NCBI GenBank assembly: GCA_003569205.1 | Contig: BGOK01000015.1 | Coordinates: forward strand, 1 to 64,000 | Length of the DNA stretch: 64,000 nt | DNA from: Verrucomicrobiota bacterium | Lineage (GTDB): Bacteria > Verrucomicrobiota > Verrucomicrobiia > Opitutales > UBA953 | Reading direction: 5' to 3' | Part shown: positions 976 to 25,862 of the stretch, piece after piece | How positions within the stretch are numbered: the first letter of the stretch is position 1 | How the letters are laid out: every line of letters starts with the position of its first letter | Position numbers and translations under genes: made by a program | Notes under the pieces: model-generated | Seen by the model: the letters and a program-made list of their open reading frames with translations, nothing else | What the model was told of the DNA's origin: nothing | Databases searched by the model: none

Positions 976-1430
976 GAGCGCGAGCGGAGCTCGCGAGGGG
1001 GAGGGGGCAGGAAACAGTGAATGCAAAAGTGCAAATCGGCTGAAGGCCTGTGCAAAGGTGGAAATCAGAGTACAGAGTACAGAGTACGGAGTACAGAGTG
1101 CGGAAAGATAGCTGTGCAAAGGTGCGAAACGGCCTACGGCCTGTGCAAAGGTGAAAAAGTGAATACCGAAACAGGTAGGGGCGAGGCAGGATAGATTACA
1201 GAGTGCGGAGTACAGAGTGGGCGGAGCCCGCGTGAGGCAGCTAGGTTGGCACGCAGTGCCAACCCTAACCCGATACAATTAGGACAGCACGTGGTGCTGT
1301 CCCTACCCGATACAAAGAGGACAAAGGGGGACCGGGGAGCGGGATGTTGGCAGGCGGAGCCGCCTCGGTAATCCGTAATCTGAACTCGGTACACTTTTAG
1401 TGCTGCCCCTACCCGAGAGGGATGATGGCG
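976..1430 (+). repeat. Intergenic repeat mosaic, block 1
   Basis: No gene is visible here. The stretch is assembled from modules that recur in six other gaps. A GAGCGGAGCTC palindrome lies at about 979-995. GTGCAAAGGTG-bounded hairpin modules lie at 1021-1064 and 1114-1160. A heptamer array (AGAGTAC/GGAGTAC) covers 1067-1103, with a shorter one at about 1193-1218. The GGTTGGCAC-GCA-GTGCCAACC hairpin is at 1242-1268, here with a changed tail (CCCTAACCC). The AGGACAGCAC-GTG-GTGCTGTCCCTAC hairpin is at 1279-1306, and a GGGGACCGGGGAGCGGGA module at about 1326-1355. The 1135-1240 part is nearly the same as 25568-25678 except for the number of heptamers. ORFs through this DNA give low-complexity peptides and are not genes. 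Confidence 0.9.
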
Positions 1431-1469
1431 GTGGAGTGTCTTTTGTGCTTCGGTCGTTTGGCGGCTGAG

Positions 1470-1483
1470 GATAGGTGCCTATC
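1470..1483. promoter_or_regulatory. Short palindrome upstream of the phosphatase-like gene
   Basis: GATAGG-TG-CCTATC is a perfect 6-bp inverted repeat about 57 bp before the ATG at 1540, in the only part of this gap that is not repeat mosaic. It could be an operator half-site pair, but there is no second copy in the window to support that. The rest of 1430-1539 shows nothing recognisable. Confidence 0.2.
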
Positions 1484-1539
1484 TTGGGCTGATTTTACAC
1501 TTCGCCGGGTGGGGCGGCGCGGTCGGTCCAGAAATTGAG

Positions 1540-2184
1540 ATGGTCACGCTAGTCCCTCGGGGTAAGTTGCCGCATGCCGAAACAAAACCTCTTCGCGTTC
1601 GTAAAATGGTCAGCGAAAGTTTGGTTCTACTCTTGGTCGCCGTTATCGCCGGAGTCGGGTTTCGTTATTGCCTGATTCAGTCCAATGGCAATCTGCGCAC
1701 CGTGGAGTCGGGCCTAGTGTATCGCTCCGCGCAACTGTCAGAGGAGGAGTTCACCCGCCAAGTCAAGAAGCTCGGAATCCGTAGCGTCATTAACCTACGC
1801 GGTGAGAACTTGGGCGCGGATTGGTATGAGGCTGAGGTCAAGGCCGCGAAAAACTTGGACGTCACCTTAATCAACTATCGGATGAGCGCGCAGGTCCGCT
1901 TAACGGTGGAGCAGATGAAGGAACTGGTCCTAGTGATGAAGGGGGCCCCTAAGCCCGTGTTGATTCATTGCCGGGCGGGCGCGGACCGTACGGGTTTGGC
2001 GGCGGCGTTGTATTGCCTCGAAGAAGGCATGACGCCGAGTTTCATGAGCTTGCAACTGTCTAGGGGCTTGGGGCATTGTACCTATCTTTTCAGCAAGTCC
2101 ATCGCGATGGACCAAAGTTTAGCACACTATATGCAGGTTAAGTCTGCGCATCCAGCTGCGGAGGAAGTGGGCGTTTCGCGCTAA
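1540..2184 (+). CDS. Membrane-anchored dual-specificity/tyrosine phosphatase-like protein
   Basis: The 214-residue protein has a basic N-terminus (KPLRVRK), one hydrophobic segment at about residues 24-44, and a cysteine-phosphatase domain. The P-loop HCRAGADRT (Cys144, Arg150) fits the CX5R signature. The upstream segment with SVINLRGE resembles the family that removes phosphate from phosphotyrosine, phosphoserine or phosphoinositide-type substrates. The single N-terminal helix suggests inner-membrane anchoring, though which side the domain faces cannot be told. A second ATG at 1606 would drop the basic leader; 1540 is chosen because the leader looks like a normal cytoplasmic flank of a membrane helix. 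lptF/G-like 2191-3330 follows after 6 bp, so the two are probably co-transcribed. Confidence 0.75.
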   Translation: MVTLVPRGKLPHAETKPLRVRKMVSESLVLLLVAVIAGVGFRYCLIQSNGNLRTVESGLVYRSAQLSEEEFTRQVKKLGIRSVINLRGENLGADWYEAEVKAAKNLDVTLINYRMSAQVRLTVEQMKELVLVMKGAPKPVLIHCRAGADRTGLAAALYCLEEGMTPSFMSLQLSRGLGHCTYLFSKSIAMDQSLAHYMQVKSAHPAAEEVGVSR

Positions 2185-2190
2185 GGACGG

Positions 2191-3330
2191 GTGCGGATTC
2201 TGGATCGACATATTCTCCGCGAGTGCGGGCTCGCGTCGGCCTTAGCCACGACCGCCTTTATGTTCGTGCTGGTGGCAGGGAACATCCTGCAGCAGGTGAT
2301 CGGGGCGGTGGCCGCGGGTCGGGTGAATCCATGGCAAGCTCTGCAACTAGTCGGGCTCTTATTTCCGACGGTCATTCCCTACGCCCTCCCCATGGGCGTT
2401 TTAACGGGTATCCTCATGACCTTTGGACGAATGGGCGCGGAAGGTGAGATCACTGCGATGAAGTCGGCCGGCCTGAGCCTTTGGCGAGTAGCCTTACCGG
2501 TGTGGCTGGCTTTGGGGTTAATCTTGCCCTTGTGCTTATGGTTGAACCTCGACGCGGGCCCAACTTCGGAGGCGCGCTTCCAGGAGATTGTCGTGGGCTC
2601 GGCCACCCGCAATCCCGCCGCCGTCATCGTGCCCGGTAAACTGAACCAGCAGTTTAAGGGCTTACTCATCAAGGCTGGCGACAGGGATGGAGACGTCCTG
2701 AAGGATTTTTGGTTATGGCAGGTGGATGCACAAGGGTCCGTTTACGAGTCGCTCTATGCCAGTGAGGCGAGACTCATCGCGACCTTTGATAGCAAGGGTG
2801 CCCCGATCTTACGCGTGACCCTGAAGGAGCCGCGGGTGACGAGGCACGATTGGGTGCCACGGCCAGATGCTAAATCTGCAGCGCATTCCTTGGCGATGGG
2901 CACGGTCTTGGAGTTTCCGCGGGAAGATCCTAGTAAGGTCGCATTTGTGAAGCGCCTCAGGATGATGACCGCTGGTGACCTTTGGCAGGCGATGGAGACA
3001 GGCTGGCAAGTGACACCGAACGCCACGGAGGCCGAGCGGGCGAAGGAGCGAACGGTGTTGAAGACCCAATTGATGTTCCGGGTGGCGACGGCCGTCTCCG
3101 TGCTTTCGTTAGCCCTTTTAGCGGTGCCCCTGGCTGTCTCGGTGGGCCGATCAGAAGTGAATGTGAATGCCGCTTTAGCCTTAGCGGTCTCGCTGGGTTA
3201 TTATGTGCTCACCTCTGCGGCCAGTTGGGTGAAGACGCCGAGCTTCCATCCCGAAGTCTTGGTGCTATTGCCTAACTTGGTCTTGATTGGGCTCGCCGTG
3301 GTCCTGATGCGCCGAGCGGTGAGGTATTGA
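2191..3330 (+). CDS. LptF/LptG family permease (YjgP/YjgQ)
   Basis: The 379-residue protein has the LptF/G layout: helices at about residues 15-35, 50-75 and 95-120, a large periplasmic beta-rich domain (about 125-270), then three C-terminal helices. Diagnostic stretches are MRILDRHILRE at the start, YALPMGVLTGILMTFGRM and EITAMKSAGLS. In the family the permease partners LptB2 to extract LPS from the inner membrane and pass it through LptC/LptA. The start is GTG at 2191, six bases after the previous stop. Only one permease is in the window, so whether it plays the LptF or LptG role is open. It is followed by repeat mosaic DNA. Confidence 0.88.
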   Translation: MRILDRHILRECGLASALATTAFMFVLVAGNILQQVIGAVAAGRVNPWQALQLVGLLFPTVIPYALPMGVLTGILMTFGRMGAEGEITAMKSAGLSLWRVALPVWLALGLILPLCLWLNLDAGPTSEARFQEIVVGSATRNPAAVIVPGKLNQQFKGLLIKAGDRDGDVLKDFWLWQVDAQGSVYESLYASEARLIATFDSKGAPILRVTLKEPRVTRHDWVPRPDAKSAAHSLAMGTVLEFPREDPSKVAFVKRLRMMTAGDLWQAMETGWQVTPNATEAERAKERTVLKTQLMFRVATAVSVLSLALLAVPLAVSVGRSEVNVNAALALAVSLGYYVLTSAASWVKTPSFHPEVLVLLPNLVLIGLAVVLMRRAVRY

Positions 3331-3650
3331 GGATGGAGGACAGAGGGGGCAGTGAATGCAAAGGTGCAAATCGGAGCGGAGCTCCTGTGCAAAGGTGGAA
3401 AAGTGAATACAGGTAGGGATAGCACTGCGTGCTATCCTAGGGGAATCGAGGCAGCTAGGTTGGCACGCAGTGCCAACCCTACCCGATACAAAGTGAAAGG
3501 GGAGCGGGGAGCGGGATGTTGGAAGGCGAACGGACGCGACGCAGTCGCGCCCCTACCCGATACAAAGAGGCAACCGGGGGGCGGGAAGTTGGCGCGGCGG
3601 AGCCGTCTCTGTAATCCGTAATCTGTACTCGGTGATCTCACGCTTGTCCG
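3331..3650 (+). repeat. Intergenic repeat mosaic, block 2
   Basis: No gene. The modules in order are: a GTGCAAAGGTG-bounded hairpin at 3355-3410; a GTAG-headed hairpin (GTAGGGATAGCAC-TGC-GTGCTATCCTAG) at 3413-3440; the GGTTGGCAC-GCA-GTGCCAACC hairpin with CTAC tail at 3456-3482; a GGAGCGGGGAGCGGGATGTT module at 3497-3523; the GCGAACGGACGCGACGCAGTCGCGCCCCTAC hairpin at 3525-3556; a G-rich relative of the third module at about 3575-3600; and heptamers in reverse orientation (CTGTAATCCGTAATCTGTACTC) at 3607-3634. Confidence 0.9.
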
Positions 3651-3698
3651 CTTCTCCGCATTCCCATTGCATCTGACGGACTTGTGGTAGGGTGGGGC

Positions 3699-4518
3699 AT
3701 GCTTTGCTTACCTTGTTGGCGTTTTTGGTCGGTGCTGTGGCTTCGGCCCAGGAAGATCCGAAGTGGCTTTCTTTATTTAACGGTAGGATCTCTCAGGCTG
3801 GACGGCGAAGATCGCGAAACCAACCGCTCGCGAGAATTACGCGAATACCTTCCGCGTCGACGACGGTATGATTAAGGTTTCGTATGATGCCTACCCGAAG
3901 TTGACCTCAAGTTTGGGCACCTGTTTACGAACCTCGCCTATTCGCGCTATGTCTTACGGATGGAGTATCGTTTCTTTGGCAAGATGATGCCCGATGCCCC
4001 TAAGTATGTGAACCTTAACAGTGGCATCATGCTGCATGCGCAGCCTCCACAGAGCATGCGATTTGACCAAGGCTTTCCCTCCGCCTGGAGTTCCAGTTCC
4101 TTGCCGACGAAGGCAAGGGGGCCCGTCCGACCGCGGCGGTCTGTACCCCGGGGACCAATCTGGAGTTCGGCGGCAAAGTCGTCACCCAGCACATCATCCA
4201 ATCCACCGCACCGACCTTTGCCGCGGAGCAGTGGGTGCAGGTTGAGGCGGAAGTGCGCGGCAATGAGGAAATCATCCATCGCGTCAACGGCGTGGAAGTC
4301 CTACGTTATCAACGTCCGCAGCTCGACCCGCGGAACCACGTCTCGCCGGCCACCGATCAACTCGACGCTGGGGCGGAGCTCATGCTGAGCTCGGGCCACA
4401 TGCTTTGCAGGCCTAAGGCCAGCCCGTGTGGTTTCGTAAGATCGAGATTCGTCGGTTAGCGCCCGCGCCCGTAGTGGTGCCGGTGACGGTGCCGGTGCCG
4501 GCGGCGGCGGCAAAGTGA
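3699..4518 (+). pseudogene. DUF1080 / 3-keto-disaccharide hydrolase-like secreted protein, multiply frameshifted
   Basis: Reading across three frames gives a coherent DUF1080 (concanavalin-like jelly roll) protein. A signal-peptide-like start (LTLLAFLVGAVASAQ) leads into DPKWLSLFNG, then a central MEYRFFGKMMPDAPKYVNLN...GIMLHAQPP, and ends with VWFRKIEIRRL plus an Ala/Pro/Val tail ending at TGA 4516-4518. At least five single-base frame changes are needed, for example a missing G after LFNGR, an extra C in cgaaaccaacc, and changes near 3905, 4085 and 4405. Related proteins act on keto-glucosides or bind plant polysaccharide fragments. The dense indels could be sequencing errors rather than true decay. 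The ATG at 3699 is the best start but is itself out of frame with the leader. Confidence 0.7.
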
Positions 4519-4996
4519 AAAGGGGGACCGGGGACCGGCTGAGAGGAAGGTGCAAAGGTGCAATCGGAGCGGAGCTCCTGTGCAAAGGTGGAAAGGTGAA
4601 GGCAGAGTACAGAGTACAGAGTACGGAGTACAGAGTACAGAGTGCGAAGTACAGATACGGAGGGAGGAGTCAGTGAATGCAAGGTGCAAATCAGCCTACG
4701 GCTTGTGCAAAGGTGGAAGGTGAATACGAAAAAGATTACAGAGTACGGAGTACAGATTACGGAAAAGCCGACAAAGGGGACCGGTGGGCTAGGGTATAGT
4801 TGGCTAGGGTTGTGACGCCGCTTCGCGGCGTGGCTTTGTTGAGGTAGGGATAGCACTGCGTGCTATCCTAGCCGCATCTAAGGTAGGGGCGTGGCTTCGC
4901 CGCGCCCTCCTTTGGATAGGAGGTCAAGGCGAAGCCTTGCCCCTACCCGCGAGCGGAGCTCGCGAAGGCATGCTAGGTTGGCACGCAGTGCCAACC
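4519..4996 (+). repeat. Intergenic repeat mosaic, block 3
   Basis: No gene. It holds an AGGGGGACCGGGGACCGG module (4521-4538), GTGCAAAGGTG hairpins at about 4550-4600 and 4677-4725, and heptamer arrays at 4604-4660 (about eight units) and 4733-4762. A GACGCCGCTTCGCGGCGTGG hairpin lies at about 4813-4833. GTAGGGATAGCACTGCGTGCTATCCTA is at 4844-4869. A GTAG...CTAC inverted pair (two opposed hairpins, BIME-like) covers 4883-4946, and a GCGAGCGGAGCTCGCGA palindrome about 4949-4965. The GGTTGGCAC hairpin at 4974-5000 runs into the stop codon of the rdgB-like gene on the other strand. Confidence 0.9.
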
Positions 4997-5611
4997 CTAC
5001 CATTTCAACACCCTCGCGATCAACCCCTCATCAGACAGCCAGTTGGGCGAAGGCTTTAGCGCGGTGGCTGAGCTTGTCCTTGGTCTGTGGTTGGAGTTCT
5101 CCGAAGGTCGTGTCGAAGCCGCTAGGGACGAAGAGCGATCATAACCAAAGCCTTCGGTGCCGACTTCGGCTTCGAGGATGCGGCCCCAGCATTGGCCAAC
5201 GAATTTCATGTCCACGCCATTAGGGTCCGAGGACGAGCAAGTGGCATTCGAAGCGCGCGCCGCGTTTGTGCGGGGGGCCTTCTTCATCGCCTCGAGTAAC
5301 TTCACGCGGTTCTCGGCGTCGGTGGCCTTCGGGCCAGCGTAGACGGCAGAGTCTACGCCCGGTCCGCCTTGGAGGTGCGTCGCAGCAGAGGCCACTGTCA
5401 GCGCGAGGATCCAAGATTTCGGTGGGGCGATGCGTTGGAGGGCTTCAGCCTTCAGGCGGCAATTGCCAGTGAATGTGCCCGTGTATTCATCGACGTAGGG
5501 CATGCCGCCGAGTTCCTGGCGGACCGGACGCGGACGGGAGGCTGGCTTGGGCGAACATGCGGCCGAATTCCTCGGCTTGTGGGCGTTGCCGGTCGCTAAG
5601 AAGATATCCAT
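4997..5611 (-). pseudogene. rdgB: Non-canonical purine NTP pyrophosphatase (RdgB/HAM1-like), multiply frameshifted
   Basis: Joining the minus-strand frames gives a full HAM1 protein. It starts MDIFLATGNAHK, continues with (E)EFGRMFAQASL, ELGGMPYVDEYTGTFTGN and LKAEALQ, then DSGLCCDA, GGPGVDSAVYAG and TEGFGYD, and ends WLSDEGLIARVLKW. These match the substrate loop (TGN..K), the metal-binding DSGL and the GVYSARYAG- and GFGYDP-type motifs of enzymes that clean ITP/XTP from nucleotide pools. At least four single-base changes break the frame, such as a lost G after NAHK. The TAG stop lies inside the GTAG head of the adjoining GGTTGGCAC repeat. Indel sequencing error is as likely as true inactivation. 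Confidence 0.75.
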
Positions 5612-6010
5612 GGGAGCAGTGAGGATAGAGGAGGGAGAAGGGTCGAGGATAGAGTCCGAGGTGAGTCGAGGCAGAGTCGAGGCAGAGACATGCAAAGGTT
5701 GCAAATCAGCCTTCGGGCTGTGCAAAGGTGAGGAAAGGTTGATACCGAAACAGAGTACAGAGTACGGAGGAAAGGTAGGGGCGTGGCTTCGCCGCGCCCT
5801 TGTTTTCATAGGAGGGCCGGGCGGAGCCACGCCCTACCCGCGCGCAGAGCTCGCGAGAGGCAGCTAGGTTGGCACGCAGTGCCAACCCTACCCAAGGCAG
5901 TTAGCACGGGCGTCGATTGGCGAACGGACGCGACGCAGTCGCGCCCCTACCCGAGGCAGTTAGGATAGCACGCGGTGCTGTCCCTACCCGATGCATGGGG
6001 GACGGGGACC
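5612..6010 (+). repeat. Intergenic repeat mosaic, block 4
   Basis: This block sits between divergent genes (rdgB-like on minus, coaB-like on plus). It contains a GAGTCGAGGCAGA direct repeat (about 5662-5688), a GCAAAGGTTGCAAATCAGCC...TGTGCAAAGGTG hairpin at 5690-5730 and a short heptamer array at about 5751-5769. A GTAG...CTAC opposed hairpin pair covers 5775-5837. A GCAGAGCTCGCGA palindrome lies near 5843-5856, the GGTTGGCAC hairpin at 5865-5891, the GGCGAACGGACGCGAC hairpin at 5919-5950, and an AGGATAGCACGCGGTGCTGTCCCTAC hairpin at 5960-5987. No clear promoter is recognisable for either flanking gene. Confidence 0.88.
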
Positions 6011-6113
6011 GGAAGGAGGCTTGTTTGCTTACTCCGAACTCTGTCCTCCTTCCCCCTTCCCACTTGTTTTCAGCGGGGGGATTGGTCAAAGTGGTCTTCT
6101 CCCCTGTACGCCC

Positions 6114-6768
6114 TTGGCTATCCGTTGTCTCATCACCGCTGGACCGACCCGAGAGTTCTTCGACCCGGTTCGGTTCGTTAGCAACCCCTCCACGGGGAAG
6201 ATGGGCTTTGCCATCGCGGCGGCGGCGAAGGCGGCGGGCTGGACGGTTGACCTGGTTTCGGGTCCGGTGGCCTTGCCGGAGCCAGCAGGGGTGATGCTCT
6301 ATCCGGTGGTGACCGCGGACGAGATGCTCCGCCAGACGGACGCCCTGTTTGGCCCTTGCGATGTCCTTATCATGACTGCCGCCGTCAGCGATTGGCGTCC
6401 CAAGGTCATGCACCCGCAGAAGCTTAAGAAGGACGGCACTGGCCTGACGGTCGAGTTCGAGCCCGTGCCCGATATCCTAGCCACCTTAGCCCAACGTCGT
6501 CGACCAGATCAGCTCCTGGTTGGTTTTGCCCGCCGAGACGGAGAACGTCGAAGCCAACGCCCTCGCTAAACTCGACCGTAAAGGCATCGACCTCGTTGCC
6601 GCCAATTCCGTGGCTGGGCCCGACGGCGCCTTTGGTAACGAACTGAACCGCCTGATCCTGCTAGGTCACGATGGCTTCCGCCACGCGCTCGGTCCGGCCA
6701 CCAAGGCCGTTGTCGCCGAGCAACTCATTGCCGCCCTCATCGCGCGCCTCGCGGCGCCGACCCGCTGA
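6114..6768 (+). pseudogene. CoaB-like phosphopantothenate-cysteine ligase domain protein, one frameshift
   Basis: The protein is the CoaB half of a Dfp/CoaBC enzyme with no visible CoaC flavoprotein half. It shows [31 protein letters not shown], a [14 protein letters not shown] motif, and then [18 protein letters not shown] and IDLVAANSV...GAFGNELN after the frame break. In coenzyme A biosynthesis CoaB joins cysteine to 4'-phosphopantothenate using CTP. One extra C near 6530 (gcccgccgag, expected gccgccgag) shifts the frame and is probably an indel error. The start is unclear: TTG 6114 just before [10 protein letters not shown] is the best guess, and the frame stays open upstream to 5991. The next gene starts two bases after the TGA. 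Confidence 0.75.
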
Positions 6769-6770
6769 CC

Positions 6771-7942: not shown

Positions 7943-7973
7943 AACTTTACGCATAATCGCTTGTCTTAATTCT

Positions 7974-8627: not shown

Positions 8628-8680
8628 GCCATCGCTCGACTTTGCTTGAACCAAGCCGGCTTCCCGCCACCGTGGGAGCC

Positions 8681-9553: not shown

Positions 9554-9656
9554 AACGGGGGTCGAGGGGTTTCTGTAAAGAAGGAGTCCTATTTATAACA
9601 CGCCACTGTTCAGTCGGACTTGCGGAGGGCCGGGGAGGGGGTAGGTTAACCGCACT

Positions 9657-10259: not shown

Positions 10260-10283
10260 GCCGGGTCCCTAGTTATTTTCCTC

Positions 10284-10901: not shown

Positions 10902-10916
10902 TCCCTGAGTCGCCCC

Positions 10917-12791: not shown

Positions 12792-13228
12792 GGCTGAAGG
12801 GACGGAGAGAAGCAGAGGCAGTGAGGTGCAAAAGTGCAAATTGGCCTAAGGCCTGTGGAAAGGTGAAAATCAGAGTACAGAGTACAGAGTGCGGAGTACA
12901 GATTACGGAGTGCGGAGTGCTGATTACGGAGGGAAGGAGGCAGTGAGTGCAAAGGTGCAAATCGGCCTAAGGCCTGTGGAAAGGTGCGAAGATGAAAAGG
13001 GAGTGAAAAGGGGGACCGGGGACAGAGGACAGAGTACAGAGTACGGAGTACGGATTATAGAGGGGGCAGGTTGGCTGGAGTATGGAGTATAGGGGGAAGG
13101 CAGGGGCGTGGCTTCGCCGCGCCCTCCTATGGTGGAGGACAAGGCGAAGCCTTGCCCCTACCCGAGGCAATTAGGACAGCACGTGGTGCTGTCCCTACCA
13201 GAGGCAGGGAAGGGGGCGCAGTGAGCGG
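12792..13228 (+). repeat. Intergenic repeat mosaic, block 5
   Basis: No gene. It contains hairpins of the GTGCAAA...GGCCTAAGGCC...GGAAAGGTG type at 12827-12866 and 12948-12985, and heptamer arrays at 12872-12930 and 13031-13058. A GTGAAAAGGGGGACCGGGGA module is at about 13004-13023, and GGTTGGCTGGAGTATGGAGT at about 13069-13088. A decayed GTAG (here GCAG) ... CTAC opposed hairpin pair covers 13100-13161, and the AGGACAGCAC-GTG hairpin lies at 13171-13198. The stretch 12891-13020 is almost the same as 22478-22617 on the far side of the giant gene. Confidence 0.9.
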
Positions 13229-13290
13229 GTTTATTATGGATTATATGAGGGAAAATGGCCGCTATTTATTTTATAAAATATTGCAGGGGT
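13229..13290 (+). promoter_or_regulatory. AT-rich candidate promoter region of the giant surface protein gene
   Basis: About 60 bp of strikingly AT-rich DNA (TTATTATGGATTATATG... and TATTTATTTTATAAAATATT) lies 70-130 bp upstream of ATG 13361, in an otherwise GC-rich region right after the repeat mosaic. TATAAAAT at about 13272-13279 could serve as a -10 element; no convincing -35 is seen. This is an inference from composition and position only. Confidence 0.3.
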
Positions 13291-13360
13291 TAGGGGGTAG
13301 CCCACACTTCATGTACCCCCATTCAATGTCCGCACTTTGCTGTGCGGGCCCACCTATCCG

Positions 13361-16300: not shown

Positions 16301-19300
16301 TCCGGCAACGGAATCCTGACCATTGCTGGTAGTAGCACCTACACTACCGGTACCACCGTGCAGGCGGGTACGCTGGTACTTGAGGGTTACAACGGTTATG
16401 CACCGATTCGCGGGACGCTGACGGTCAATGCGGGGGCAACCGCGGTGACGACGGGCGATGGCACGGGCTTGGGCTGGCAGCTCTGGAACGGAGCCAAACT
16501 CTCCAAGTTGATTATCAACGGCGGAACCGTCACGACGGCCGGCGTCATGCACGTATGGGACTTAGCGGGCGGCGTGGAGATGACTGGAGGTACCCTGCAG
16601 AGTAATAACGGGATCGATAGTGGCGGGGATAATCGTCTCGAGTGGCGCAACGCGCATGTGACGACCTTTGCCAGTGCGGATACGGCGAAGATTGCCGGCC
16701 GGATCAACCTGCGGGCTGATGGCGGGGCCGGGACTGGTCTCAACCTGACTGTCGCGGATGGGGCGGCTACGGTCGACCTTTTGATCAGTGCGGCCATTAC
16801 GGAGGCGGGGGGGCAGCCGGTCGCCAAATATGGCGCCGGCACTTTGCGACTCAGTGGCACCAATGTTTTCACTGGCGGTTTCGTGATCCAATCTGGGACA
16901 GTGTCTGCGGCGGCTAACTCGACCAGCAACGGCGGCTATTCCAGCTTAGGAGCTGGCACCGTAACCATCCAGAATGGCGCAACCCTGGTCTCCGATAGCG
17001 AATTCTCCACAGGCAACGAGTGGATGGGAGGTAACGTCGGTAAGATTACGGTGAACGCCGGCGGCACTTGGTTGATCAACAGCCGAGGTAATACCGTCCG
17101 CAATGGGCTAGAATTGAGTGGCGGTAGCATCAGCGGCGCTGGAGGGGATGCTGATTGGGGAGGCCTGTATCTGCGGAATACTACGGTCACTATTAGCGGC
17201 GGGGTCGTCTCAACGATTGCCGCCGATACGGCGATGAATGCGGTGACCACTTTTACGGTGTCCGGCGGTAGCCAACTGAATTTCAGTGGCTCATCACACA
17301 ACAGCTACGGCGCCACGGGTGGCGTCAGCAAGGAAGGTGATGGCCCCATGATAATCTCCGGCCCGGCCAGCTTTACGGGAGCGTCTACCGTGCTGGCGGG
17401 CACTTTGGTTTATGCCAATGCTTTTGCCGCCTCGGCCCACACGATAGCGAGTGGGGCGATCTTGGAACTGAATTTCGCCGCTTATCGTGATTCTGGTACG
17501 ACCTCCTTCAGTGGCGTGGGGACGCTCCGTAAGACGGGGGCCGGGACTATCCTATGGGGGGAAGGGTCGGCGACCTTCAGTTTGGGCGCCGGTGCTCTCA
17601 TCGATATCCAAGAAGGTGTCTTCACTGGTGGTTCCCACGCTAACGAGAACTGGACCACCAATCTCTCCGACCTGAACGTCGCGGCTGGGGCCGTCTTTAA
17701 TGGCGTTGAAGCCAACGTTCGCGTCAATCGCCTCAGCGGCACAGGCACGATTAAATCGGGCTACGGCGGCGCGGGTTATCAGGCACTGACTTTCGGGGTA
17801 GAAAACGGCAGTGGAGCTTTTGACGGGCTTATCGTAGACTCCCAGAGTGCTGCCAACATCGTCAAAGAAGGCACGGGGACGATTATCTTCCTTGGCGCCA
17901 ATACCTATACTGGTAGTACGCTGGTCTCGGCGGGAACGCTCCAGGTGGGCGATGGTGGCTTGATTGGCACCTTAGGCTCGGGCGCGGTGACTATCTCTGC
18001 GGGGGCGACCTTGGAGATTAACCGAGGTAATGACTTTGCGAGCGCGGTGGGGCAGACTTTCAGTGGAGCGGGTACCCTTGTGAAGACCGGTGCTGGTGAG
18101 GCGGTCTTTAAGGGTAATATGAGCGGCTTGGATAAATTGGTCGTGTTTGATGGCACCGTCCGCACGGATAGCTGGAACCCTTGGAAGGACGGCTTACGCT
18201 TGAGCGTTAATGGCCTAGGAACTTTTGAGCTTTGGAACACCGCTGTGACTATCGGGGAACTCAGTGGAAATGGCGTCATTCGTAACTCCGCCAATTGGAG
18301 TGGCTACGCGAATGGCGCGGCCATCGCCGTCAATAACCTCACCGTCCAGTCGGGCAATTTTGGCGGCACTATCAGTGACAACGGTTACGGCTCTGGCGGC
18401 ACCACGGGTTCGGCGAACAGTGATACCACCTTGAGTCTCATCAAGACGGGCGTCGGCACGCTCACCTTATCGGGCCTGAGCGATTATTCTGGAATCACGG
18501 TTTTTGCGGGCGGCGTGGTCAATGCGGCTTTCTTGGCTGATAACGGGATGCCGAGCAGCTTAGGCTTGGGTACTGGCGACACTGCCGGTGAACGTATCGG
18601 CCTACTCTTCCGCGGGGGAGTCTTGAAGTATACCGGTTCCTCTGCCCAGACCACCAATCGGGCCATCCGCTTGAGCACAGCTGGCGGGGGCGGGACCATT
18701 GACGCTTCTGGTAGTTCGGTCGATGCGACGTTAGTTTTCTCCCGTTCGCAGATGCCTAATTGGTGGGAGGAGCCAGGCGTCCGTTCACTCACTTTGACCG
18801 GCCTCAATACCGGGGAAAATACCCTTGTGGCCGGCATTAACGATTTATCCGGCCCCACTACCATTCATGTGAACAAAGAAGGCATAGGCACATGGGTGCT
18901 CGCTGGCGCTGGCAATTACCTCGGCGTCACGGACGTCAAGGCGGGCACGTTAATCGCCACTCACAGCACTGCGCTGGGTACCGGTGGACTCAACGGGGCC
19001 ACGATGACTTGGATTCGCGCTGGCGCGACGCTCGCCCTGAGAGGTGATATCAGCATGAATGAGCACCTACACGTGCTCGGTACTGGGGTCGGTGGGCTGG
19101 GTGCCATCCGCAGCTTGGCGGGCACTAACGCGTTGACCCAGTGGATTGGTTTGGACGGTGACACGACCATCGGTGTGGATGCTGGCACGTTGACGTTGAC
19201 GAATGTTGTCTACGGCGACGGCGCCGCGAATGCCTCCAATCTTACCAAGGCAGGTGCCGGCGTCTTAGTGCTATCGGGAGCGAATCTTTATTCAGGCGTC

Positions 19301-22300
19301 ACGGTTTTCGCTGGCGGCGTTGTGCAAGCCACCACCTTGGCCGATAATGGGACGGCGAGCAGCTTGGGCGTGGGCACTGGCGATACTAATAATGATCGCA
19401 TCGGCCTGCTCTTCCGCGGCGGCGTCCTGCAGTATACTGGCTCGACGGCTCAGAGCACGGACCGGGCGATCCGCTTGAGCACAGACTTCGGGGGCGGGAC
19501 CATTGATGCTTCGGGCAGCAACCCTTCGGCGACCCTGTCGTTCACGCGTGCATCGATGCCTAACTGGTGGGAAAACGGCGGCAATCGTTCCCTGACCTTG
19601 ACTGGCCTCAATACCGGGGAGAATACCCTTGCAGCCGGCATTAACGATTTACCCGGCGGCACTAAGATTGACCTCATTAAGAGCGGCGTAGGTACTTGGG
19701 TGCTCGCCGGTGCCGGCAATTACTTGGGCGTCACGAATATCAACGCGGGTATGCTGTTGGTCACGAACAACACCTCCCTCGGCGTCGGCGGGTGGGATGG
19801 AGGTACCATGACCCACGTCCGCGAAGGAGGTACGCTGGCCCTGCGCGGTGGCATTAGCCTTGATGAGCATATGCATGTCTGGGGTGCCGGCGTCGGTGGC
19901 CTCGGCGCCATCCGCAGCCTCTCTGGTAATAACGCCCTGACAATCGGGGGCAACAACGGTACCGGCTTCGCACTGCGCTCCAATACCGTTGTCGGCGTGG
20001 ATGCCGACACGCTGACCGTGACCGGCTTCTATGAGTACGGCGGTAGCTTCGACCTGACCAAGGTCGGCGGCGGCACGCTGGTGGTCACCGCGAACAGCAG
20101 TTACAGCGGCGTCACGGTCTTCGCGGGCGGTGTGGTCAATGCGGCCACCTTTGCGAATAACGGCACGGCGAGCGGCCTCGGGGCCGGCACGGGCGATACC
20201 GCCAGTGAACGTATCGGTCTCCTCTTTCGCGGGGGCGTGTTGCAGTATACTGGCTCAACGGCTCAAAGCACGGACCGGGCGATCCGCTTGAGCACAGACG
20301 GAGGGGGCGGGACCATTGATGCTTCGGGCAGCAACCCTTCGGCGACGCTATCGTTCACGCGTGCATCGATGCCTAACTGGTGGGAAAATGGTGGCACTCG
20401 CACCCTCACTTTAACCGGGATTAATACCGGAGAGAATACCCTTGTGGCCGGCATTATGGATTGGTCCGGCGTCACTACCATCCATGTGAACAAAGACGGG
20501 GTAGGCACTTGGGTGCTCGCGGGGGCTAGTGGTTACCTGGGCGTCACGGACATCAAAGCGGGCACGTTGATCGCCGCCCACAGCGCTGCGCTGGGTACGG
20601 GTGGCTTTAATGGCGCCACGATGACTTGGGTTCGCTCTGGCGCTACGCTGGCCCTGAAAGGCGATATCACCTCGAATGAGCAGATCCGTGCGGGTGGTGC
20701 CGGTGTCGGTGGCCTCGGTGCCATCCGAAACTTGGCGGGTGCCAACGCGTTGACTCAAGCGGTCTCTCTGGACAGCGATACGACCATCGGCGTGGATGCG
20801 GGGACGTTGACGTTGACGAATACTGTCTCCGGCGACGGCCCTTTGAATGCCGCCAGTCTCATCAAGATGGGTAATGGCATCTTAGTGCTTGCTGGGACGA
20901 ATCTTTACACTGGTGCGACTATTCTCGAGGGCGGTAAACTCGTGGTCAGTTCGTTGGGTACAGGCAGCGGCGGTTCCTCCTTGGGGGATGCGAATCCTCA
21001 GTTAGCCCATAAACTTCAACTTAAAGGTGCGGTCACCTTAGAGTATGCGGGCGTGGGCGAAAGCACCGACCGGAGCTTTACCGTCTCTGGTTCTGGGCTG
21101 ACACTTTCTTCGGTCGGCACGGGCCCGGTCATATTCACGGCGGCATCGTTACTAGCCCTATCGGCCGACGGCGTATCGACGCGGACGATTACGCTGACAG
21201 GAACGCAGACGGGCGACAATTCCTTCGGCTCGACCTTATTGGGAAATCCTGCCGCGGCAGATACCTTCCAGAAAATCATCAAGCAGGGCGTCGGTAAGTG
21301 GGTCCTAGAGGGATCGCCTAACCGCTTGAGCAGTAACTTCAGGGTGGAACTCAAGGCCGGCACCTTGGGCTTGGTGACGGGTGCCCTCGGCGGCGTCGAT
21401 TATAGTGGCGACATTGCCTTCAACTCCAATTCCACGCTGCGATGGGAAGCGGGTAACTCCGACGACCTGTCGTCCCGTATCATCATCGATGATGGCGTAC
21501 GGGCGACGTTGGATGTGGTTGGGGGTGAACTGCCTTTGGCTGCTTCCATGCGGGTGGGGGTGGCGCAGACCGCGACCTTGCATAAGACTGGGGCGGGTAC
21601 GTTGACGTTGAATGCGTCGCAGGCGGTATCTGCGGTGAGTATGGATGCTGGCAGGATCCACGTGAATAATTCTGGAGCCTTGGGCTCGGGTGCGGTGACC
21701 GTGAATGGAGGGACCTTATCCATCGCCACAGGGGTGTCCGTTGCTAACGCCGTTCAGGTTTACCAAGGGGGCATCCTGGAAGGCACTGGTGGCGCGGGGG
21801 CCGTTCGGATTAAGGTCGGCGGCGTGCTTAGTCCGGGGGCCTCGCCGGGTATCTTAACGATGCAAAGCCTTATCCTTGAGGCCGGCTCACTCATCGATTG
21901 GCAAATCCATGATGCGGCTGGGTTGTCGGGCGTGGGCTATGATCGCATGGACGTGCTGGGTGCGGTCGACCTTTCGGGCTTATCCATGGGGAGTAAGGCG
22001 ACTCTCCGGGTTATTTCCTTGGTGATAGTCGGGCCGGATGTGGTGGGCAATCCCCTGAACTTCGACAACAACGTCGCGGCGAATACGGCGCCACGCAGTT
22101 TTAAATTGGCGACCTGCGGAAGCCTTAATCTTGGTTCCAATCAGAACATCAATGACGCGTTCACCGTCGATGTCAGTCAGTTCCGCTTTTCGGATGGCTC
22201 GTTGGCCGATGCGAGCCTGTGGGTAGTCTCCTACGACTCCGGAGCTGGGGCGATTATGTTAACGGCGATCCCTGAGCCGTCGACCTATGGACTGGGCTTG

Positions 22301-22363
22301 GGTGCGCTGGCACTCGCGTTGGTGGCGGTACGGCGGCGGCGAGTAGGAAGGAAGAGCCAATAA
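13361..22363 (+). CDS. Giant autotransporter-strand-repeat surface protein with PA14-like domain and PEP-CTERM anchor
   Basis: The uninterrupted 3000-residue protein begins with a signal peptide (ATLLAAAFLAVASPELSAEA). An N-terminal sandwich covers about residues 35-210. Many PATR-type strand repeats follow (pattern LTKTGxGxLTLTGANTYSGGT...G.L..G). A PA14-like domain lies at about 427-557 (WNYSGYVYVP, CIDDAAWLKVDDTVV, GWHRIDARFQ). Three tandem long repeats cover about 1711-2517. A terminal domain starts GVGYDRMDVLGAVDLSGL, and a PEP-CTERM tail (PEPSTYG at residue 2971, hydrophobic helix, RRRR) closes the protein. There is no autotransporter beta-barrel, so export is probably Sec plus exosortase sorting; no exosortase is in the window. 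ATG 13361 is used because it directly precedes the leader. Likely a secreted or cell-surface adhesin or matrix protein. Confidence 0.9.
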   Translation: MPSRLRPATRISRATLLAAAFLAVASPELSAEALSFDGIQASATATKVIFATDYADYLGGQATFNSANGGGRLYWRGAAGDGQYMHFDLSSLAGQRIIGPGYLTLQRANPQWGGSVDGSFIGLANVAWSASGGSAVPGVTALVSPVSTTGSYLSGASVSWGLGGSVLQGLVDSPSTNLGLAVIGGSGSTMHFDGGMSPTLTLRTGTLSAASVAGVITVTGGEAWNAAKYTFSAGDAYAAAATLTINASLTGGSAGDIVINGGQVVVNQPGGIDNAYWSVNSTRINAGGLLTINGHSHVKNVTLAGGELAASAFNGQWGGWSIDGLLLATGATVSTMSAPRVSMDNTTAVQVDAGSSLNFTGDIRMGAVTKTGPGILTLSAANIHSGGVALNAGTLSLKNDAALGTGALTVNGGKLVLNGLAGLHEGSLSVTSLDATQANPRIATRLTTTMANTNAGWGDNQQWNYSGYVYVPTVSRWTFAECIDDAAWLKVDDTVVLNDGNWGNVSLGSIDLSVGWHRIDARFQNGGGGAGYAGTWGTGFGFGVDRQGRGDAAIANFTTLSDAGDGATLVRDLLISNNLVLAAGVNELQTPVGGAILSGILSGSGQLLKTGNGWLTLTGANTYSGGTHLTEGVIVAGSAGALGTGDVTFTGGVLRFTANSTGVAWAERIKNSPAPVTLDSAGLNLSVNGLVASNTGGLTKLGQGTLSLVGASSYGGETRVNTGTLKLVTTLGAATVATSTGAIFVAATGNRLAGLLPSSNVGGGAAEGSGLVGSLTDGVALVGAATAYTVNSSQVITFNLPTAAAPLGYDLLGVKIYATWNDPGRDAISLEALKVATVTDPTTFVTLAGSAVNFDPAGGFNGLNLASIMAANGVLAKDVAAVQFVFGAQENGHAGYAELELLATAITGTGGRDLLPVTSRLMVEAGATLDLNGNHQTLAGLAGAGTVTNAALGGTVTLTVNQDATTTFTGALTGDLRLVKSGNGILTIAGSSTYTTGTTVQAGTLVLEGYNGYAPIRGTLTVNAGATAVTTGDGTGLGWQLWNGAKLSKLIINGGTVTTAGVMHVWDLAGGVEMTGGTLQSNNGIDSGGDNRLEWRNAHVTTFASADTAKIAGRINLRADGGAGTGLNLTVADGAATVDLLISAAITEAGGQPVAKYGAGTLRLSGTNVFTGGFVIQSGTVSAAANSTSNGGYSSLGAGTVTIQNGATLVSDSEFSTGNEWMGGNVGKITVNAGGTWLINSRGNTVRNGLELSGGSISGAGGDADWGGLYLRNTTVTISGGVVSTIAADTAMNAVTTFTVSGGSQLNFSGSSHNSYGATGGVSKEGDGPMIISGPASFTGASTVLAGTLVYANAFAASAHTIASGAILELNFAAYRDSGTTSFSGVGTLRKTGAGTILWGEGSATFSLGAGALIDIQEGVFTGGSHANENWTTNLSDLNVAAGAVFNGVEANVRVNRLSGTGTIKSGYGGAGYQALTFGVENGSGAFDGLIVDSQSAANIVKEGTGTIIFLGANTYTGSTLVSAGTLQVGDGGLIGTLGSGAVTISAGATLEINRGNDFASAVGQTFSGAGTLVKTGAGEAVFKGNMSGLDKLVVFDGTVRTDSWNPWKDGLRLSVNGLGTFELWNTAVTIGELSGNGVIRNSANWSGYANGAAIAVNNLTVQSGNFGGTISDNGYGSGGTTGSANSDTTLSLIKTGVGTLTLSGLSDYSGITVFAGGVVNAAFLADNGMPSSLGLGTGDTAGERIGLLFRGGVLKYTGSSAQTTNRAIRLSTAGGGGTIDASGSSVDATLVFSRSQMPNWWEEPGVRSLTLTGLNTGENTLVAGINDLSGPTTIHVNKEGIGTWVLAGAGNYLGVTDVKAGTLIATHSTALGTGGLNGATMTWIRAGATLALRGDISMNEHLHVLGTGVGGLGAIRSLAGTNALTQWIGLDGDTTIGVDAGTLTLTNVVYGDGAANASNLTKAGAGVLVLSGANLYSGVTVFAGGVVQATTLADNGTASSLGVGTGDTNNDRIGLLFRGGVLQYTGSTAQSTDRAIRLSTDFGGGTIDASGSNPSATLSFTRASMPNWWENGGNRSLTLTGLNTGENTLAAGINDLPGGTKIDLIKSGVGTWVLAGAGNYLGVTNINAGMLLVTNNTSLGVGGWDGGTMTHVREGGTLALRGGISLDEHMHVWGAGVGGLGAIRSLSGNNALTIGGNNGTGFALRSNTVVGVDADTLTVTGFYEYGGSFDLTKVGGGTLVVTANSSYSGVTVFAGGVVNAATFANNGTASGLGAGTGDTASERIGLLFRGGVLQYTGSTAQSTDRAIRLSTDGGGGTIDASGSNPSATLSFTRASMPNWWENGGTRTLTLTGINTGENTLVAGIMDWSGVTTIHVNKDGVGTWVLAGASGYLGVTDIKAGTLIAAHSAALGTGGFNGATMTWVRSGATLALKGDITSNEQIRAGGAGVGGLGAIRNLAGANALTQAVSLDSDTTIGVDAGTLTLTNTVSGDGPLNAASLIKMGNGILVLAGTNLYTGATILEGGKLVVSSLGTGSGGSSLGDANPQLAHKLQLKGAVTLEYAGVGESTDRSFTVSGSGLTLSSVGTGPVIFTAASLLALSADGVSTRTITLTGTQTGDNSFGSTLLGNPAAADTFQKIIKQGVGKWVLEGSPNRLSSNFRVELKAGTLGLVTGALGGVDYSGDIAFNSNSTLRWEAGNSDDLSSRIIIDDGVRATLDVVGGELPLAASMRVGVAQTATLHKTGAGTLTLNASQAVSAVSMDAGRIHVNNSGALGSGAVTVNGGTLSIATGVSVANAVQVYQGGILEGTGGAGAVRIKVGGVLSPGASPGILTMQSLILEAGSLIDWQIHDAAGLSGVGYDRMDVLGAVDLSGLSMGSKATLRVISLVIVGPDVVGNPLNFDNNVAANTAPRSFKLATCGSLNLGSNQNINDAFTVDVSQFRFSDGSLADASLWVVSYDSGAGAIMLTAIPEPSTYGLGLGALALALVAVRRRRVGRKSQ
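18491..20911 (+). repeat. Three tandem ~268-codon repeats inside the giant protein gene
   Basis: Copies start at 18491, 19295 and 20108 with lengths 804, 813 and 804 bp, all multiples of three. Each begins VTVFAGGVV (ITVFAGGVV in copy 1), and contains ERIGLLFRGGVL (DRIGLLFRGGVL in copy 2), DRAIRLST or NRAIRLST, SMPNWWE or QMPNWWE, LTGLNTGENTL or LTGINTGENTL, GTWVLAGA and GVGGLGAIR. Copies 2 and 3 are closest in their first halves, copies 1 and 3 in their second halves, which suggests past unequal crossing-over or conversion. Confidence 0.88.
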
Positions 22364-22731
22364 AGGGGACAGGTTGGCTGGAGTATGGAGTATAGGGGGC
22401 TGAAGAGTGCAAAGGTGAAAATCAGAGTACAGAGTACAGAGCACAGAGTACAGAGTACAGAGCACAGAGTACAGAGTGCGGAGTACAGATTACGGAGTGC
22501 GGAGTACAGATTACGGAGGGGAGGAGTCAGTGAGTGCAAAGGTGCAAATCGGCCTAAGGCCTGTGGAAAGGTGCGAAGATGAAAAGGGAGTGAAAAGGGG
22601 GACCGGGGAGCGGGATGTTGGCAGGCGAACGGACGCGACGCAGTCGCGCCCCTACCCGAGGCAGAGCTATTCCCTATCCGCCAAACACTAACCGCTATCC
22701 GCCAGCGACGGCACGTGGTGCTGTCCCTACC
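22364..22731 (+). repeat. Intergenic repeat mosaic, block 6
   Basis: This lies between the convergent giant gene and gpmI. Modules: GGTTGGCTGGAGTATGGAGT at 22372-22391; the longest heptamer array of the window at 22424-22518 (about 13 units of AGAGTAC, AGAGCAC, GGAGTGC, AGATTAC); the GTGCAAAGGTG...GGCCTAAGGCC hairpin at about 22536-22573; GTGAAAAGGGGGACCGGGGA at about 22591-22610; the GGCGAACGGACGCGAC hairpin with CTAC tail at 22624-22655; a CTATCCGCCA direct repeat at about 22673-22704; and a partial GCACGTGGTGCTGTCCCTAC element at 22709-22730 that touches the gpmI stop codon region. Confidence 0.9.
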
Positions 22732-24285: not shown

Positions 24286-24342
24286 GGAAGTGAGGAGGGG
24301 TTTCTGGTGGATTTCCCGAGTGAAGTGAATTCAAATCCCTGC

Positions 24343-24711
24343 ATGCGGCTCCTGCGTTCTTTGCACCTCATCCTCGGCTGCTTTTTCGCCCCTTTGCTGT
24401 TGTTTTATGCCGTCTCTGGCTTTTGGCAGGTCTTCGGCTGGCAGTGGGCTAAAAGCCGCGACGACGCTAGCTTAGCGTTGGCCAGCACGATTCACACTGG
24501 ACGCGGGCTAAAGGGCGAAGGGATTTCGTCCCTATCTTCCGAGCCCCTGCGCTGGTTCGCGGCCGCCATGGCGGTCTGCCTAGTGGTCATGATCGTCACC
24601 GGGCTCATCCTCGCATTGCGCTCGGCCAAATCGAAGACTGCGGCCTGGGCCATTGCGTCGGGACTCGTCATCCCGCTGGCCTTTGTCCTCTTCGCCTTTT
24701 ATCGTAACTAA
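24343..24711 (+). CDS. Small membrane protein with PepSY-associated-helix-like architecture
   Basis: ATG 24343 gives a 122-residue protein with three hydrophobic segments (about residues 5-28, 67-88 and 96-119) and a polar loop containing STIHTGRGLKG. The LHLILGCFFAPLLLFYAVSGFWQVF start and HTG loop resemble PepSY-associated transmembrane proteins, whose function is not established. The frame stays open upstream over gpmI, but those residues are antisense shadow. The next gene begins 3 bp after its stop, so the two are probably co-transcribed. Confidence 0.65.
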   Translation: MRLLRSLHLILGCFFAPLLLFYAVSGFWQVFGWQWAKSRDDASLALASTIHTGRGLKGEGISSLSSEPLRWFAAAMAVCLVVMIVTGLILALRSAKSKTAAWAIASGLVIPLAFVLFAFYRN

Positions 24712-24714
24712 AGC

Positions 24715-25494
24715 ATGAACCCCCTCCGCACCCTTCTGGCTCTTTCTACCCTGATGTTTGGTATAACCGCTTCGGCGGCCACGGTTGAAAAACTCACCAT
24801 CGATGGTAAGGCTGTCACCGTGAAGGTCCCGGATAAGGCTGCGTCGGGGAAGCCGTGGCTCTGGGTGGGCGAGTTCGGTGGCCACCTCAAATCACTCGAG
24901 GACGGCCTCGTCGCCCAGGGCTGGCACGTCGTGTATGTCGGCGTGAGCAATCAGTTCGGCTCGGCCCGCTCGATGGATACATGGGATAAAGTCTACGCCG
25001 AGTTGCATGGTAAGCGTGGCCTCTCCGCCAAGCCGGCCTTGCTCGGCATCTCGCGTGGCGGACTTTACGTGAACGCCTGGGCGCGTCTGCACCCGGATCG
25101 CGTCAGCGTGCTCTACCTCGATAACGGCGTGTGCGATATCCGTTCCTGGCCAGGCGGGTTTCAGCTTACCGCGAAAGGCAAGGGCAGTCCTAACGACTGG
25201 AAACTCTACAAGGCTGAGTTCAAGTTTGCCTCCGATGAAGAAGCCTTAGCCAAGTCACTGCAGGCTGCGGAGGGACTTCTCCCGGCCATTAAAGCCGGTG
25301 TGTTCTTGATCTCGTGTCACGGCACCGCCGACAAGACGGTGCCATTTGTCGACAATGCTAAGCCGGTGGTGGATTTCTGGCAGAAGAACGGCGGTAAGTT
25401 CAAGGCCTTCCCTAAGGAAGGCGGAGACCATCATCCGCACGGACTGCCTGATCCGAAGCTGCTGATTGAGGTTCTAATGGCGGAGGCGAAGTGA
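24715..25494 (+). CDS. Secreted alpha/beta hydrolase
   Basis: The 259-residue protein has a signal peptide (LLALSTLMFGITASAA) and an alpha/beta-hydrolase fold. The nucleophile elbow is GISRGG with Ser113, the acid is likely Asp in GTADKTVP, and the histidine lies in the GDHHPHG motif near residue 240. LWVGEFGGHLKSLEDGL may form the oxyanion-hole strand. It is similar in layout to periplasmic prolyl-oligopeptidase-like or acetylxylan-esterase-like hydrolases, but the substrate cannot be told. It follows the small membrane protein with a 3-bp gap. Confidence 0.8.
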   Translation: MNPLRTLLALSTLMFGITASAATVEKLTIDGKAVTVKVPDKAASGKPWLWVGEFGGHLKSLEDGLVAQGWHVVYVGVSNQFGSARSMDTWDKVYAELHGKRGLSAKPALLGISRGGLYVNAWARLHPDRVSVLYLDNGVCDIRSWPGGFQLTAKGKGSPNDWKLYKAEFKFASDEEALAKSLQAAEGLLPAIKAGVFLISCHGTADKTVPFVDNAKPVVDFWQKNGGKFKAFPKEGGDHHPHGLPDPKLLIEVLMAEAK

Positions 25495-25862
25495 GTGCGC
25501 AGGCGAAGCCCGCGAGGGGACGGGTTGGTTAGGGGGCTGAAGAGTGCAAAGGTGCAAATCAGCCTACGGCCTGTGCAAAGGTGAAAAAGTGAATACCGAA
25601 ACAGGTAGGGGCGTGGCAGGATAGATTACAGATTACAGAGTACAGATTACGGAGTACGGGCGGAGCCCGCGTGAGGCAGTTAGGACAGCACGTGGTGCTG
25701 TCCCTACCCGATACAATCGGACGGATGTCGATTGGCGAACGGACGCGACGCAGTCGCGCCCCTACCAGAGCTAGTTGAAATGGGGGACAGGGAACCGGGG
25801 AATGAGCGCCCTTACTTCCTCTGTAATCCGTAATCCGAACTCTGTAATCTAACTCTTCGCCC
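25495..25862 (+). repeat. Intergenic repeat mosaic, block 7
   Basis: This lies between the convergent hydrolase and ispG genes. Modules: a GTGCAAAGGTGCAAATCAGCC...GGCCTGTGCAAAGGTG hairpin at about 25543-25585; GTGAATACCGAAACAGGTAGGGGCG at about 25589-25613; heptamers at 25624-25658; the AGGACAGCAC-GTG hairpin at 25680-25707; the GGCGAACGGACGCGAC hairpin at 25734-25765; a GGGGGACAGGGAACCGGGG module near 25782-25800; and reverse-orientation heptamers (CTGTAATCCGTAATCCGAACTC) at about 25820-25850. It is the last mosaic seen; none occurs from here to 64 kb. Confidence 0.9.

Follow-up and report, generated by a model that had tools for sequence, protein, structure and literature searches.

The hairpins clustered in the first 26 kb of contig 15 of a Verrucomicrobiota genome are almost certainly repetitive extragenic palindromes (REPs) of the GTAG superfamily. 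REPs are short, non-autonomous stretches of bacterial repeat DNA, thought to be multiplied and spread by REP-associated tyrosine transposases (RAYTs, also called TnpA_REP), which are HUH single-strand nucleases. The stretch analysed, referred to throughout as ‘the window’, comprises bases 1-64000 of contig 15 of assembly G000, a draft of 2.23 Mb in 34 contigs, 85% complete. In sister species, the positions of the hairpins beside RAYT genes and the tree of the transposases assign most stem types each to a single RAYT lineage. Stem type tracks the RAYT tree, and the several stems found behind one head thus correspond to several RAYT lineages obeying one GTAG rule. We infer that at least four such lineages seeded the window.

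The window contains the word GTAGGG 33 times, with 16 occurrences on the plus strand and 17 on the minus. We define a GTAG hairpin as GTAG followed by a stem of at least seven pairs, with at most one mismatch, and a loop of 3-4 bases. Seventeen sites, spanning 1282-25765, pass this rule, and every one has a 9-bp stem and a 3-base loop. Degenerate copies, two of them with altered heads (GTTAG and GCAG), raise the total to around 21, and an earlier note on this sequence, which had counted about 18, was a fair estimate. The elements have a common layout. GTAG directly abuts the stem, which proceeds through GG, five variable pairs and two tip pairs to the loop, and then back to CC. The six main stem types are ACAGCAC-CAC (three copies), TTGGCAC-TGC (three), ATAGCAC-TGC (two), GCGCGAC-TGC (four), GCGTGGC-TTC (two) and GCAAGGC-TTC (two); in addition, there is one hybrid, ACAGCAC-CGC, with the far arm GTGCTAT. 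The note had claimed at least five palindromes with the same flank, and each that it named was found at or near its place. It was correct that the stems differ, but they are not unrelated: they have the foot GTAG-GG...CC in common, and several have the same tip. The three pairs that it described as head-to-tail or opposed (4883-4946, 5775-5837 and 13100-13161) are all opposed, with the heads at the outer ends, and none is head-to-tail. By the rule, the last 38 kb of the window (25900-64000) contains no GTAG hairpin, all 17 being in the first 26 kb. GTAG hairpins are likewise missing from four of 20 other stretches fetched from G000.

These 20 stretches and the window together form a sample of 462,161 bases, or 21% of the genome, which is non-random, being drawn from contigs with known copies. 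It contains 123 GTAG hairpins by the rule; three first-order Markov copies average 7.0, and the frequency of GTAG among 6,070 matches having any 4-mer as head predicts 15.5. Enrichment, which the note proposed as a check, is borne out in this sample. Other 4-mer heads are also frequent in the sample (TAGG, 193; AGGG, 140; CTAG, 64), and these we read as putative nested or opposite-strand readings of the same elements. Perfect hairpins with stems of at least 8 bp and loops of 3-5 bases number 174 in the 462 kb, compared with 39 in one Markov copy, and in 102 of the 174, GTAG exactly abuts the foot of the stem. Across the whole 2.23-Mb genome, a degenerate pattern that covers only GCAC..GTGC stems finds 83 matches, and its reversed control finds none. 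Hairpins with the head GTAGG[G/A] lie mostly between genes: 101 of 115 are outside crude open reading frames (ORFs) and 14 are inside, and these ORFs make up 85% of the sample. Where neighbouring hairpins are no more than 150 bp apart, the heads face outward in 24 cases and inward in one, and 39 are tandem. Eleven of the 24 outward pairs combine a GCGTGGC-like hairpin (in one case GCGGGGC) with a GCAAGGC hairpin across a spacer of 12-14 bp, like the pair at 4883-4946.

The association with transposases was observed in the relatives. We fetched 62 Y1 genes together with their flanks; 55 of these are short RAYTs (53 from the genus and two from the family), and the remaining seven, which are long and TIRYT-like or else distant, were left out of the tree described below. 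Every one of the 55 short RAYTs has a GTAG hairpin within 600 bp. Hairpins are present on both sides of 49, as read by eye, and of the six one-sided cases, three begin at the edge of a contig. Under a stricter rule, a REP can be parsed for 54 of the 55. In G016, for example, one RAYT lies between two GCAGCAC-CGC hairpins of opposite orientation; a second RAYT, at a distance of 4.6 kb, is enclosed by a pair of ACAGCAC-CAC hairpins. The stop codon of the RAYT is the TAG of the adjoining element in 22 of the 55, belonging to the GTAG head in nine and to the far edge in 13. Three of the window's types (ACAGCAC-CAC, GCGCGAC-TGC and GCGTGGC-TTC) are matched exactly beside RAYTs of distinct clades. 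Near variants of others are also found there, namely TCRGCAC-TGC for TTGGCAC-TGC and ATAGCAC-TGC, and GCAAGGC-TAT for GCAAGGC-TTC. The note was correct to read GTAG followed by a hairpin as the REP/RAYT arrangement, and the RAYTs of sister species do have GTAG hairpins on their flanks.

We assigned stem classes by eye, from the flanking sequences, and only then built the tree. The 16 stem classes can be mapped onto the tree of the 55 RAYTs with 16 changes, one more than the minimum of 15; the mean after shuffling is 42.9, and none of 200 shuffles was as low. Eleven of the 14 groups with at least two rows are each confined to one branch. In an alignment of 47 RAYTs, H70 and Y123 are invariant and H72 is conserved in at least 90% of rows. 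The proteins also retain W, Q, D, H and R at the spacing of residues reported for interaction with GTAG (PMC6006769). Their best solved relative is TnpA_REP (4ER8; E 7.6e-18), and all 47 match the family NF047646 at E <=0.001, many of them below its curated cut-off. By analogy with the enzymes of Escherichia coli, Stenotrophomonas and Marinomonas, such a RAYT would bind the hairpin in single-stranded DNA, with GTAG as a guide; its tyrosine would then cut at a nearby CT and join the piece elsewhere. The head would be constant because the RAYT residues reported to contact GTAG are constant, and the stems would differ because each RAYT reads its own hairpin.

REPs also come and go between close relatives. 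We compared five intergenic gaps of the window (A-E) with five relatives. Counterparts were located in G031 for gaps A to D, in G044 for gap A, and in G017 and G032 for gap D; gap E had none in any of the five. Syntenic gaps of close relatives, with flanking genes 82-95% identical, hold different sets of REPs. Gap A (975-1570) has one in the window, three in G031 and four in G044; gap B (3330-3720) has three in the window and four in G031; and gap D (5600-6061) has four in the window, five in G031, two in G017 and none that parsed in G032. Gap C is 540 bp in the window and 2,964 bp in G031, and is not a like-for-like comparison. One position in gap A is orthologous across three genomes, with ACAGCAC-CAC in the window and GCAGCAC-CGC in both G031 and G044, a difference of one compensated pair and one loop base.

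The degenerate pattern was found in 45 of 55 genomes of the genus (the present one included), in one of 18 from elsewhere in the family and in none of 42 from elsewhere in the order, and the reversed control again found nothing. For four classes, we compared exact copy numbers per genus genome with the presence of the cognate RAYT among the fetched loci; one RAYT fragment, in G033 contig 17, falls outside those loci. Median copies with and without the cognate RAYT are 21 and 4.5 for ACAGCAC-CAC (seven genomes with it; one-sided p 9e-5), 25.5 and 3 for GCAGCAC-CGC (six genomes; p 4e-4), and 21 and 3 for GCGCSAC-TGC (three genomes; p 0.013). Further afield, the RAYT profile was run against named genomes. 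Among 479 relatives, the best 80 come almost entirely from records titled Verrucomicrobia, Opitutae, Lentisphaerae, Kiritimatiellae or kin. Around the RAYTs of these 80, GT[A/G]G hairpins occur on both sides in 56, on one side in 10 and on neither in 14; for four single control tetramers, the figures are 9 of 320 on both sides and 39 on one side, each control being one fixed tetramer where the GT[A/G]G tag is two, so that it is about half as permissive, and not composition-matched. One record among the relatives, CALPIW020000129.1 (L206, 5373 bp), is titled Polynucleobacter meluiroseus and contains a RAYT like that of G047 contig 129; it is probably misnamed or mixed.

The genome of the window has its own Y1_Tnp gene, a single one, on contig 8 at 89078-90228 (locus L031, 1320-2470). 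Its coding sequence is broken into two ORFs that lie in different frames; its relatives in the genus have open frames of 306-333 amino acids. The gene is flanked by unrelated palindromic inverted repeats (GGGGTCAGGCC ends, and GGGGTCAGGCCGCTCC...GGAGCGGCCTGACCCC), and in the 3,279 bases around it there is neither GTAGGG, on either strand, nor a GTAG hairpin by the rule. We considered it as the RAYT of the window's REPs and rejected it, because its ends are different and GTAG hairpins are absent from its flanks. It fits a TIRYT-type transposase, and the end motif GGGGTCAGGC occurs 17 times in the own-genome sample. The proposal that a Y1_Tnp gene should carry the same hairpins on its flanks was therefore upheld for the RAYTs of sister species and failed for the gene of this assembly.

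Several observations weigh against the assignment of the window's hairpins to RAYT-driven REPs. A profile of the 47 RAYTs, run against the own assembly with E values up to 10, finds no gene beyond the one on contig 8. None of the 62 fetched Y1 genes has a copy of TTGGCAC-TGC, the most frequent exact type in the sample, within 600 bp. The corresponding class, TYRGCAC-TGC, has a median of 6 copies with its cognate RAYT (four genomes) and 2 without (p 0.11), and its highest counts, 75 and 46, are in genomes that lack that RAYT; the proposition that RAYT presence explains REP number in every class is accordingly not upheld for this one. A RAYT match of at least 100 bits is present in 28 of the 55 genus genomes and absent from 27, and 23 of these 27 still bear REPs of the four classes. 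Examples are G020 and G051, each 91% complete, with 52 and 24 such REPs, respectively, and no 100-bit match, although G020 has one NF047646 match (E 3.6e-9) that the RAYT profile misses. NF047646 is matched above its cut-off in only 22 of 115 genomes, and the first aligned RAYT, at 72.8 bits, is itself below that cut-off of 80. On the tree, two changes are needed for three of the 14 groups with several rows, among them ACGTCRCTCC (two rows), which does no better than shuffled. Nor was a clean empty site or insertion boundary obtained in gaps A-E, among which base-level alignment was usable for gap A. An apparent lack of RAYTs is uncertain for incomplete genomes, and those that lie within repeats may drop out of an assembly. 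The REPs of the present genome, stemming from at least four RAYT lineages, are either left-overs after the loss of the RAYTs, or the products of RAYTs situated in the missing part of the assembly.

With no RAYT at work now, recombination between repeats, or gene conversion of entire intergenic cassettes, might alone be moving the REPs here, an account compatible with their origin as REPs. We take this seriously, but think it somewhat improbable. No RAYT was found in the own assembly, and one cassette, ATAGCAC followed by an opposed TTGGCAC, is present in gap B of the window and also in gap A of G031 and G044, as such exchange would have it. On the other hand, the many exact copies (46 of TYRGCAC-TGC in G000) argue for recent or recurrent spread, and approximately 15% of the genome, where a RAYT might lie, is missing. 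Far less probable is that selection maintains the hairpins as RNA elements, such as transcription terminators or stabilizers of mRNA 3'-ends, and that their spread is secondary. REPs do lie mostly between genes, many are plausibly transcribed (PMC3733652), and 37 of 100 gap-placed REPs are in convergent gaps, compared with 62 of 317 ORF pairs that are convergent (crude ORFs, unweighted by length). A head on one side only, linkage to RAYTs, and class-specific flanks are not expected of terminators, however, and turnover between syntenic gaps counts against the idea too. That 900-26000 yields no Rfam match at the gathering score also speaks against it, but says little alone. REPs may have a secondary role in RNA all the same. 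That the hairpins are miniature ends (miniature inverted-repeat transposable elements, or MITEs) of a classical insertion sequence is scarcely credible, for although opposed pairs resemble terminal inverted repeats, the heads are single-sided, each stem is self-complementary, and the genes found inside such pairs in relatives are RAYTs, though no search aimed at other transposases with these ends was made.

If the hairpins are GTAG-superfamily REPs spread by RAYTs, the question arises of which bases each RAYT reads. We entertain, with some doubt, the idea that it reads the constant GTAG-GG foot together with a tip address (the top two base pairs and the first two bases of the loop), and that the five middle pairs drift in a compensatory manner. 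Among REPs flanking the same RAYT, agreement is 0.93 at the tip and 0.63 in mid-stem; between protein clusters, it is 0.36 and 0.42 (Wilcoxon p 0.016). Protein clusters were used here to avoid the circularity of labels given by eye; seven of eight contribute, two of them being single genes from other genera of the family. Among the best 80 of 479, there are 64 loci apparently outside the genus, 38 of which have at least two distinct REPs. In these 38, the tip agrees better than the middle in 29, equally in three and worse in six, and tip agreement shows no excess over the between-locus baseline (p 0.81). The idea is weakened, too, by TTGGCAC-TGC and GCGCGAC-TGC, which belong to different RAYT lineages and have the tip AC-TGC in common. 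If true, many stems behind one head would amount to a modular code, its guide fixed, its tip exchangeable and its spacer free, and a new RAYT could take over existing REPs once a few tip positions had changed.

Table 1. REPs of the window, with coordinates, strand and basis
Position	Strand	Feature	Basis
1244..1269	-	Degenerate REP, TTGGCAC-TGC type, head GTTAG	Read in sequence, rechecked
1282..1306	-	REP, ACAGCAC-CAC type	Hairpin rule
3413..3437	+	REP, ATAGCAC-TGC type; opposed pair with 3458-3482	Hairpin rule
3458..3482	-	REP, TTGGCAC-TGC type	Hairpin rule
3532..3556	-	REP, GCGCGAC-TGC type	Hairpin rule
4844..4868	+	REP, ATAGCAC-TGC type	Hairpin rule
4883..4946		Opposed pair (REPIN-like), heads at outer ends: GCGTGGC-TTC, 4883-4907 (+), and GCAAGGC-TTC, 4922-4946 (-)	Hairpin rule
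4976..5000	-	REP, TTGGCAC-TGC type	Hairpin rule
5775..5837		Opposed pair: GCGTGGC-TTC, 5775-5799 (+), and degenerate partner, 5813-5837 (-)	
5867..5891	-	REP, TTGGCAC-TGC type	Hairpin rule
5926..5950	-	REP, GCGCGAC-TGC type	Hairpin rule
5963..5987	-	REP, hybrid ACAGCAC-CGC, far arm GTGCTAT	Hairpin rule
13100..13161		Opposed pair: GCGTGGC-TTC, head GCAG, 13100-13124 (+), and GCAAGGC-TTC, 13137-13161 (-)	
13174..13198	-	REP, ACAGCAC-CAC type	Hairpin rule
22631..22655	-	REP, GCGCGAC-TGC type	Hairpin rule
22706..22730	-	Degenerate REP, ACAGCAC-CAC type, far arm altered	
25683..25707	-	REP, ACAGCAC-CAC type	Hairpin rule
25741..25765	-	REP, GCGCGAC-TGC type	Hairpin rule

The intergenic gaps that bear REPs contain other repeats. 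Tandem arrays of 7-bp units (CAGAGTA, CGGAGTA, CAGATTA, etc.) are present at 1066-1104, 4603-4662, 4737-4763, 12871-12931, 13022-13062, 22423-22518 and 25623-25657. A dispersed phrase that is not a REP, like GTGCAAAGGTGCAAATCGG...CCTGTGCAAAGGTG, occurs in several of the same gaps (e.g. 1020-1060, 12826-12860, 22535-22575 and 25543-25583), and GTGCAAAGGTG occurs 42 times in the 462 kb. An ORF of 3008 amino acids, at 13337-22363, contains numerous beta-strand repeats of the autotransporter type, and its end weakly resembles PEP-CTERM.

The closest known counterpart is the GTAG superfamily as described in PMC3733652: 24 REP families in which an unpaired GTAG stands by a stem of 6-13 bp with a short loop. 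Several families can be present in one genome, with repeat-specific RAYTs, and homo- and heterodimers often have the GTAG termini outside. The hairpins here are alike in head, in short stem and loop, in the number of families and in dimers, and differ in genus; the comparison is one of architecture. The same paper names Opitutus terrae, also of the Verrucomicrobia, as highly REP-enriched, and reports that sequences flanking a RAYT overlap the gene. A literature search with Opitut- names and ‘repetitive extragenic palindrom’ gave no match, though that paper treats O. terrae under a short name. Several stem types behind one head have been published for Stenotrophomonas, Pseudomonas and Opitutus (PMC3733652, PMC2817692, PMC3686654), and multiple GTAG families with repeat-specific RAYTs in one genome are likewise on record (PMC3733652, PMC2817692); the earlier note's view that such variety would be unusual does not stand.

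In Stenotrophomonas and Pseudomonas, the RAYT is flanked by cognate inverted REPs, often at the stop codon, and the tree of the RAYTs is congruent with that of the REPs; REPs lacking their RAYT are frequent, and are explained by loss of the RAYT or by a switch of REP class (PMC2817692, PMC3686654). The system described here differs from these in that the foot GTAGGG...CC is present in nearly all parsed REPs of the genus and family. PMC2817692 proposed that RAYTs originated after the branching of the gammaproteobacteria; here, they occur in Opitutae and other bacteria of the Planctomycetes-Verrucomicrobia-Chlamydiae (PVC) group, as PMC3733652 implied. The contig-8 Y1 gene resembles TIRYTs and TIRtrons in its long-frame relatives (306-333 amino acids) and in its GGGGTCAGGC ends, which are compatible with GGGGWSAS (PMC3733652); these ends are not the GTAG hairpins of the window.

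The enzymes invite a similar comparison. TnpA_REP binds single-stranded REPs and cuts them at CT in vitro, as reported for the E. coli, S. maltophilia and Marinomonas enzymes, and GTAG is needed for cleavage; the S. maltophilia enzyme depends on the first loop base and tolerates changes in the foot of the stem (PMC8266576). Such a requirement for GTAG, combined with tolerance of foot changes, would explain a constant head with variable stems. The RAYTs described here have the same HUH pair, WQ, D/E-H and R spacing, and catalytic tyrosine as the E. coli protein (4ER8). The hairpins are more like those of S. maltophilia, being short and perfect with a 3-base loop, than like E. coli REPs, which need a bulge in the stem (PMC8266576), whereas those here have at most one mismatch. 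REPs of this kind are known, and we claim no novelty for those of the window, which are a well-supported further instance. What they add is a dense natural series (55 genomes of one genus, and about 15 hairpin classes with cognate transposases readable by position) that would help to show which bases of the hairpin a RAYT reads, a matter addressed so far in vitro with few enzymes (PMC8266576). Genomes poor in RAYTs and rich in REPs, finally, provide material on how long REPs outlive their transposase.

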